Assembly (NCBI RefSeq): GCF_000315445.1
Contig: NZ_JH992960.1
Coordinates: 1 to 64,000 of the forward strand
Direction: 5' to 3'
From: Alloiococcus otitis ATCC 51267
GTDB lineage: Bacteria > Bacillota > Bacilli > Lactobacillales > Carnobacteriaceae_A
DNA: 64,000 nucleotides
Part shown: positions 35,389-61,959 of the stretch, in pieces
How positions within the stretch are numbered: the stretch's first letter is position 1
How the letters are laid out: every line of letters starts with the position of its first letter
The notes under the pieces: generated by a model
What the model was told of the DNA's origin: nothing
Database searches by the model: none
The model's input: only the letters and a program-made list of their open reading frames with translations
Position numbers and translations under genes: made by a program

Positions 35389-35400
35389 TTGCCCACCGCC

Positions 35401-35443
35401 AGCCAGGTAGGAAGGACTCGATGCCTTCTTGCCTGGCTTTTTT
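35401..35443 (+). terminator. Terminator of kbl-tdh
   Basis: AGCCAGGTAGGAAGG pairs with CCTTCTTGCCTGGCT around ACTCGATG, followed by TTTTT. Confidence 0.92.
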
Positions 35444-35756
35444 GTGTGAAAAAGCGGAAATGGGCCAAAGTCAAGGATAAAATAATATGCGATATAAAAT
35501 AGGGTTAACCGAGAGGGACTTTAGTCTTCTTAAATACCAATGGCTTTTAAGAAAACCACTAGAATTATAAAATAATATCTGTTGTTCGAGAAAACCGTCA
35601 TTAAATTATGGATAACATTAGTAGTTAAAGAAAAATAACTGCGAGCAAGTCAAGTACCATTGCAGCTATCATAAATGCAGAAGTCTATAGTCGTCGTTAA
35701 CTAACAAGCAAGCTTAAATCTTCTGTTAAGCAATGATCAGACTCAGGTTTAGCTTA

Positions 35757-35889
35757 TGCTCTCTCCTAGGAAAATACCTGTGTTCAGCCCAGTCGCTTGG
35801 CTTATTTCTCCCCTCCCCAAGAACAAGTCCTTGCCAAGGGGGTCTGGCAACTTGGACCGGCACGATCAGTCCTAGACTAGGAGAGCTGG
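35757..35889. other. Possible structured RNA in a gene-free stretch
   Basis: Between 35444 and 35892 I see no gene. The right half can fold: GCTCTCTCCTAG near 35757 pairs with CTAGGAGAGC near 35876-35885, enclosing a strong hairpin TTGCCA/TGGCAA with outer GTCC/GGAC near 35829-35859. No promoter or known RNA family is recognised, and the strand is unclear. The left half (35460-35740) is AT rich without clear features. Confidence 0.3.
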
Positions 35890-35892
35890 TCA

Positions 35893-35924
35893 TTAAAAAG
35901 AGGCAACTTCAAACAGTTGCCCCA
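35893..35924 (-). terminator. Terminator of the metallo-beta-lactamase gene
   Basis: On the minus strand GGCAACT pairs with AGTTGCC around GTTTGA, then TCTTTTT. Confidence 0.8.
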
Positions 35925-35999
35925 AAAAAGTAGAGTGTCTCTATTAAGCGGTCTGGGTTAAAAAATGACCATTTTTTTAGTTTAAGCTTATTGTAAGAA

Positions 36000-40079: not shown

Positions 40080-40181
40080 CATGGCTGGTGAAAGCTAGGA
40101 GGGGAGTAACTAGCTAAAAAAGAGGAAACGGTCAAGTCCTATTACTTGGAGCGGTGAAGGGACTGGACGATTTTAGTTTAG

Positions 40182-40395
40182 TTCTATAATTAAATTGTGA
40201 TTGTAGAATTTTTGCGCCGAAGTTCTACAATTGGACTGTGATTATAGAATATCTATTCCGAAGTTCTACAATTGGTCTGCGATTATAGAATTTCTGTTCA
40301 GAAGTTCTACAATTGGACTGCGATTATAGAATTTCTGTTCAGAAGTTCTACAATTGGACTGCGATTATAGAATTCCCAGTCCATAATTCTACAAT
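40182..40395. repeat. Palindrome array A, 41-bp period (five units and a half)
   Basis: Units start at 40182, 40223, 40264, 40305 and 40346, exactly 41 bases apart, with a final half unit at 40387. Each is a 27-base inverted repeat with arms TTCTACAAT...ATTATAGAA around a 9-base centre such as TGGACTGCG, followed by a 14-base spacer. In units 3 and 4 the spacer is itself nearly palindromic (TTCTGTTCAGAA). The arms mismatch at one position as C/A on the plus strand in units 2-5, which is a U-G pair in minus-strand RNA. The array lies in the 405-base gap between convergent mvaS and mvaA. Confidence 0.95.
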
Positions 40396-40430
40396 TATAA
40401 ATTTACAACTTTACACATGCATTAACAGAG

Positions 40431-40471
40431 GCACCAGACCCAGGTCAGACGACCTGGGTCTGGTGCTTTTG
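40431..40471 (+). terminator. Terminator between mvaS and mvaA
   Basis: GCACCAGACCCAGGTC and GACCTGGGTCTGGTGC form a perfect 16-bp stem around AGAC; TTTT follows on the plus strand. It lies after the palindrome array, so the mvaS transcript should include the array. Confidence 0.92.
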
Positions 40472-40484
40472 CTAGCTAGAAAAT

Positions 40485-61549: not shown

Positions 61550-61556
61550 ATAAAAA

Positions 61557-61606
61557 CCCCTAGTAAATTGGTTTGTTAGGAAACAAGCCAACTACTAGGG
61601 GTCTTG
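61557..61606 (+). terminator. Terminator after tsaD
   Basis: CCCCTAGTA (61557-61565) pairs with TACTAGGGG (61593-61601), with an inner GGTTTGTT/AACAAGCC stem, then TCTTG. Confidence 0.8.
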
Positions 61607-61696
61607 TGGTTAGAGTGAACCATTATCCGTTAGTGGACCATTTTAAAACATAGATTATTATTCAAAACTGGCTGCAGTTGACGAATCTTAGCGAAA

Positions 61697-61847
61697 TTCT
61701 CAAACAAGGACTGTTATTTGAGAATTCTTTGGAGGTTTTCTCAAACAACTACCGTTATTCGAGAATGCTAATGGATTATTCTCAAATAATATATATTATT
61801 TGAGAATCCCGGCACTTTTTTCTCAAACAACAATTGTTATATGAGAA
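61697..61847. repeat. Palindrome array B, 41-bp period (four units)
   Basis: Units start at 61697, 61738, 61779 and 61820, exactly 41 bases apart. Each is a 28-base inverted repeat beginning TTCTCAAA and ending GAGAA; unit 3 is a perfect 28-base palindrome. Spacers of 13 bases differ in sequence. Arm mismatches (C/A on the plus strand) become U-G pairs in minus-strand RNA in units 1 and 2. It lies in the gap between convergent tsaD and xpt. Confidence 0.95.
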
Positions 61848-61922
61848 TTTTAAAAGCTCGCTTGTTTAGGCTAGGTCTAAAAACTAGCAAGGTTGGATTC
61901 ATTAAATACTTATCATAGCAGT

Positions 61923-61952
61923 AAAAAGGACCAGGTTAGACTGGTCCTTTTT
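61923..61952. terminator. Terminator of xpt (bidirectional)
   Basis: AAAAAGGACCAG pairs with CTGGTCCTTTTT around GTTAGA. Confidence 0.92.
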
Positions 61953-61959
61953 ATGAAAC

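Follow-up and report, generated by a model that had tools for sequence, protein, structure and literature searches.

A probably mobile, composite family of palindromic repeats with a 40/41-bp period, concentrated at converging gene ends

The palindromic array between mvaS and mvaA is one locus of tens in the same superfamily and not a device specific to these two genes. Its relatives are dispersed over tens of intergenic loci, their modules follow an order, A arrays have been amplified locally, B arrays have been dispersed as ordered elements, and the whole is concentrated at convergent gene ends. We consider this probably to be a composite repeat family of the BOX/REP kind, interspersed and specific to the lineage; it is probably mobile or selfish DNA and not a switch dedicated to mvaS and mvaA. 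The 64-kb stretch of Alloiococcus otitis DNA in which the array was found is called the window below.

Results

The array between mvaS and mvaA

The array is flanked by a convergent gene pair: mvaS (HMG-CoA synthase; PF08540, PF01154; 38877–40079, + strand) and mvaA (HMG-CoA reductase; PF00368; 40485–41777, − strand) both point their 3′ ends towards it. It belongs to what we call the A family and consists of five complete 27-bp palindromes within 40182–40372 (40182–40208, 40223–40249, 40264–40290, 40305–40331 and 40346–40372), starting in steps of exactly 41 bp, with TTCTACAATTGGACTGCGATTATAGAA as the typical unit on the + strand. The left arm alone of a sixth, truncated unit (TTCTACAAT, 40387–40395) follows in the same 41-bp register. 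TRF reports a period of 41, 5.3 copies and a score of 285, and places the array end at 40396. The five and a half copies of a 27-base palindrome at exact 41-base spacing described in the original prediction were thus confirmed by coordinates, TRF and profile as five full units and a partial sixth. The array is assigned to the − strand, which here denotes the strand of the module order and is set by the conserved asymmetry of the arms. A border motif, ATAGGACTTGACC (40130–40142, − strand), matches the consensus TTTGGACTTGACT in 10/13 positions, as at other A/B array borders. Between the array and mvaA lies a terminator-like hairpin (40423–40474, + strand; 24-nt arms, 88% complementary, TTTT after the stem). 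This hairpin, with its T-rich tail on the + strand, comes after the array, in agreement with the earlier claim that the array lies upstream of the mvaS terminator, and plus-strand transcription through the array is plausible from this arrangement.

The A array is real and far beyond chance. Its units score 40–49 bits with the unit profile, against a control maximum of −0.7 with the reversed-window profile, and the A pattern has 26–34 matches in the genome, against 0–1 for the same pattern reversed. An assembly or sequencing artefact, by which repeats were collapsed or expanded, is extremely improbable. Several other arrays of the genome do contain N runs inside their repeats, but the window array is gap-free, tens of loci have diverged, non-identical units and unique flanks, and the controls are empty or nearly so. 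The original prediction had named absence from all relatives together with an assembly error as the findings that would speak against the array. Absence was indeed found in all other genomes searched, none of which belongs to the same genus; assembly error was ruled unfit, because such an error cannot yield tens of diverged, dispersed loci.

Two further arrays lie in the window, both of a second family, B. Four 28-bp palindromes in 41-bp steps occupy 61697–61847 (− strand), between convergent tsaD-like and phosphoribosyltransferase genes. A degenerate array of about three units at 39–40 bp occupies 35527–35632 (+ strand; 28.7 and 35.2 bits against a control maximum of −0.9). This decayed array, which lies in the window's remaining long convergent gap, was missed by TRF. 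The arrays are AT-rich (30.5–32.7% G+C, against 45.2% for the window), and Rfam found nothing but rRNA and tRNA in the window.

Module types and their order across the genome

We sampled about 45 array loci in the 1.81-Mb genome; all locus counts are lower bounds, based on searches and on stretches around arrays. The arrays are built from five module types (A, B, C, Cd and D) with a common 40/41-bp period. A forms about 12 arrays in the genome and B at least 24, and C occurs at about 17 loci. In the sampled loci, profiles find 35 A, 78 B, 54 C, 21 Cd and 25 D units. A and B are the clearly palindromic modules. The B unit is a 28-bp palindrome with a 13-nt spacer, 41 bp in all, and reads TTCTCGAATAAC-NNNN-GTTGTTTGAGAA on the ordered strand. 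The others are tandem repeats, of 40 bp for C (AAAACTTCCTTATTTTGATTTATTGTCCAGTTTCAACTTC) and of 41 bp for Cd (e.g. AAAGTACCTTATGGCTAGCCCATTGTCGCCTTTCAACTTTG) and D (e.g. CATAACTCCTTTATTGCTCAGCGATTGTCGCGTTCTTGCTC), and they adjoin many A arrays. A, C, Cd and D look related through a common ATTGT core in one register, as read by eye from the sequences.

The modules follow a fixed order: D, border motif, A or B, linker, then Cd and C, with parts absent at many loci. The 13-nt directional motif TTTGGACTTGACT recurs at some array borders. At a threshold of at least 10/13 it stands upstream of A/B arrays at 10/34 loci (0.45 expected), and it stands downstream of A arrays at 6/12 (0.05 expected), including the copy at 40130–40142 in the window. 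The reversed motif is not enriched (1/11 upstream of A, 0 elsewhere). The A and B palindromes themselves retain a directional asymmetry of their arms. A shared stretch of about 150–200 bp (AGTCCAAATCTATGTGTAAATTCTACAATATAG...) lies ahead of C arrays at L126:2200–2370, L130 and L020 (reverse strand), which suggests another module. Assembly gaps, seen as N runs, lie inside A, C and D arrays (L017:4012–4111, L023:3646–3745, L024:3963–4197, L128 and L133), and the true length of some of these arrays probably exceeds the assembled one.

Arrays lie preferentially between convergent genes

The window has three convergent gaps that measure 100 bp or more (35389–35999, 40080–40484 and 61550–61959). Every one of them holds units, and a profile scan of the window found no units in any other gap or elsewhere. 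Among the sampled loci, arrays occupy 16/20 convergent gaps of at least 150 bp, the four empty ones being 159–203 bp long, against 23/78 other gaps (20/62 tandem and 3/16 divergent; Fisher p 5.5e-5); these loci were sampled for having arrays, which raises all rates, and the sampling was blind to gene orientation. By a hand count with simple ORF calling, the gene on the C/trailer side has its 3′ end towards the array in about 25/37 cases. At most B loci, the ordered strand is antisense to the trailer-side gene.

The 41-bp pitch and a possible phased binding of protein

The distance between neighbouring A units is 41 bp in 20/20 cases. For B it is 41 bp in 54/66 cases and 40 bp in nine, with 39, 38 and 66 bp occurring once each, and the central six positions of the B spacer are close to random. 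Since 41 bp is about four turns of DNA, all palindromes would lie on one face of the helix. Gyrase has been proposed as the binder of BIMEs. One possible explanation is that a dimeric or architectural protein, or gyrase, binds these one-face palindromes every four turns and so manages supercoiling or collisions of converging transcription units. The constancy of the spacing in both families, the 40/41-bp period of all five module types and the strong bias of the arrays to convergent gaps are consistent with such phased binding, as is a duplicated pair of loci, described below, in which the stems were kept and the loops and spacers changed. However, the module sequences differ, and a single protein could bind them all only with very loose specificity, failing which several would be involved; the directional arm asymmetry of A and B is not needed by a symmetric dimer. 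REP families, too, typically favour convergent gaps, a preference explained by tolerance (PMC3733652). A constant period does not single out a phased site, because the length of a unit is kept by descent and by tandem duplication as well. We regard phased binding as unlikely, and the pitch may have been kept by selection or by such descent and duplication. A broader proposal is that of a lineage-specific chromosome-organising system, in which palindromic modules of much different sequence, at a four-turn pitch of 40/41 bp and at convergent ends, would serve one or more architectural proteins as phased docking sites, and these proteins would take up supercoiling or insulate transcription units that converge. 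We hold this, too, to be unlikely.

RNA folding and covariation

The arrays could instead act in RNA. In this view they would be transcribed as 3′ untranslated regions or as small RNAs, and their successive hairpins would either stabilise 3′ ends or keep transcription from running on into the gene opposite. The A array does sit between mvaS and the terminator-like hairpin, and for both window arrays, either strand is predicted to fold much more stably than shuffled sequences (z −8.1 plus and −6.5 minus for A; −5.8 plus and −10.1 minus for B). RNA hairpins are energetically possible on both strands according to these predictions. In A, the strand predicted to fold better is the plus strand, in the mvaS sense (−73.9 against −60.6 kcal/mol for the minus strand), contrary to the emphasis that had been placed on minus-strand RNA. 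The related claim, that most arm mismatches would be U-G pairs in minus-strand RNA, is correct for position 6 (U.G) and fails at position 10, which is C.A in 30/33 A units.

The arm mismatches of B are mostly G.U on its ordered strand, because of which this strand folds better, and the linkers are A-rich, as an RNA element might have them. The favoured folding strand runs against the module order in A and along it in B. Compensatory changes occur at positions 10–12 of the B inner stem, equally on both strands, and the underlying counts are inflated by relatedness between units. A position-wise test found no compensatory change at A positions 1–12, and no covariation was found at B position 6, which holds most of the G.U pairs. 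There was no strand-specific covariation, and covariation of a D cross-unit hairpin was not significant. We therefore rejected the choice of a strand from G.U mismatches: B position 6 does not covary, the favoured strands of A and B differ, and A retains C.A. We conclude that the palindromy of B is maintained, by selection or by template-switch correction between the arms, and that the data name no transcribed strand. The compensatory changes in the B stem speak for a role in RNA; their equality on both strands, the lack of covariation where G.U pairs are most frequent, the C.A mismatch that A retains on one strand, the difference in favoured strand between A and B and the usual antisense position of the B ordered strand to the trailer-side gene all speak against it. 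Together, these results make an RNA element improbable as the main explanation.

Similarity among units and a probable spread of arrays

A and B arrays differ in how their units resemble each other. A units are more similar within an array than between arrays (0.872 against 0.781; permutation p < 0.001), and A arrays look locally amplified. B units are more similar to units of the same index in other arrays than to other units (0.759 against 0.719; p < 0.001), with no same-array excess, and B arrays look copied whole, as an ordered element of 3–5 hairpins. Many B arrays begin with a CGTATAAC-type unit, continue with middle units and end with an AAACTTG-type unit.

The neighbouring loci L043 and L044 are duplicates, with about 89% identity over 98 bp beside their B arrays, and thus offer a natural experiment in array change after duplication. 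Their copy number differs (3 against 5 units). In two aligned units, 48/48 stem bases have been kept; the loops are identical in 5/8 positions and the spacers in 22/26.

We looked for an agent that might move these elements. No Y1 (RAYT) transposase (PF01797) was found in the genome, the assembly of which is 97% complete, and RAYT/REP mobilisation was rejected on this ground. An autonomous insertion sequence carrying the B trailer was considered as a mobiliser, and none was identified in the genome. Terminal inverted repeats of B had been seen by eye (leader TTTTGGACTTGA, trailer AAGGTCAAAA); they were rejected, since own-pair and cross-pair scores are equal (16.6 and 16.7) and barely exceed, and do not stand out from, the score of shuffled sequences (15.9). 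Separately, one transposase-like frame (MTQLNLTLDANKL...; IS256-like by eye) adjoins an A array (L019:3976–4436) and a D/C array (L131:2690–2900), and arrays may serve as insertion targets.

Distribution outside this genome

A search of the genome and of relatives for the A pattern had been proposed as a check. It revealed many arrays in the genome itself and none in 394 further genomes of the order, all from other genera, where neither the A pair nor the C unit was found. A scan for the B unit in one genome for each of 84,980 species, a collection that possibly does not include the genome of the window, yielded 23 stretches that each matched at one position only, and no B arrays by that pattern. 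A had no match in plasmid and phage collections; viral contigs gave six single matches for A and none for B or C. A phage or plasmid origin was rejected on these results. The repeat family thus looks lineage-specific, judged by sequence searches.

Conservation of the mvaS–mvaA array among relatives was likewise rejected: none of the mvaS loci of 25 relatives has this array, and mvaA lies within 1.5 kb of mvaS in 1/25. About 400 kb sampled from five relatives contained one comparable intergenic-type tandem array and no dispersed family. That array (L124:8067–8820) is a 51-bp tandem repeat of about 15 copies with CTCAC/GTGAG arms. In two species of another genus of the family, a palindromic array with a 52-bp period (AAAGGGCAC...GTGTGACCTTT) lies upstream of mvaS (L079:197–524 and L081:358–525). 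This array was tried as a dispersed family and rejected, being found at a single locus only, in 2/12 species searched.

Discussion

One close likeness is to BOX. BOX of Streptococcus pneumoniae and the BOX-type elements of S. suis are composite, intergenic, hairpin-forming and species-restricted repeats within the order Lactobacillales (PMC3049150). In BOX, boxA and boxC surround a variable tandem of boxB, which varies between strains, and the element is judged parasitic (PMC3049150). The family described here shares with BOX several module types in a fixed order, tandem copies of a module in variable number, the formation of hairpins, the restriction to a species and the occurrence in Lactobacillales. 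Unlike BOX, it has 40/41-bp modules at a constant pitch, several module types rather than one in tandem, and no detected terminal inverted repeats. The likeness described here is one of organisation. By this analogy, the family would work and evolve like a BOX element, which is not to say that it is one.

Many REP families are confined to one species, and they are found mostly between ORFs that converge or run in the same direction (PMC3733652). Like REP/BIME elements (the GTAG and CGTC superfamilies), the present repeats are extragenic palindromes of 20–40 bp, clustered, lineage-specific and biased to gene 3′ ends, as seen in the sampled gaps. They differ in that the genome has no Y1/RAYT transposase, that no GTAG/CGTC tag stands outside one palindrome end (GTAG occurs only inside the A arm, and B has none) and that the arrays are regular, head-to-tail and set at 41 bp. 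With MITEs such as RUP they share shortness, AT-richness, dispersal and a non-coding nature, but they have no terminal inverted repeats, let alone any common to an autonomous element of the genome. Palindromic repeats of 27–28 bp at regular spacing recall CRISPR. Here, however, the spacers are 13–14 nt long and mutually related (mean pairwise identity 0.47 for B and 0.52 for A, against 0.35 and 0.26 expected from composition) instead of unique and about 30 nt long, and there are tens of short arrays in which the palindromes diverge between units.

We then propose a model for the origin of the arrays. The elements would have spread in trans as non-autonomous mobile DNA, a mobile origin being suggested because B is dispersed as whole ordered elements. 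Slippage or unequal recombination may then have altered array length with the period kept, and the arrays may persist at gene 3′ ends because insertions there would do little harm. If transcribed, they would give hairpin-rich 3′ ends with at most a local effect on mRNA stability or on read-through between mvaS and mvaA. Two observations go beyond what pure neutrality requires: the near-constant spacing of B despite randomised bases in the central spacer, and the palindromy of B, kept with compensatory changes. The three candidate roles in the original prediction (protein sites, chromosome organisation and RNA hairpins), among which it made no choice, are partly supported, and a wider frame is needed to hold them.

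Composite hairpin repeats that mark converging genes are seen in this genome with unusual clarity, and their grammar can be read: ordered modules, a border motif and two modes of amplification. If the family is mobile, it could serve as a model of the origin of BOX-like elements within a single lineage and of their spread in the absence of an obvious transposase. If it is bound by protein, the fact that different palindromes have the same 41-bp pitch would suggest a phased array where transcription converges.
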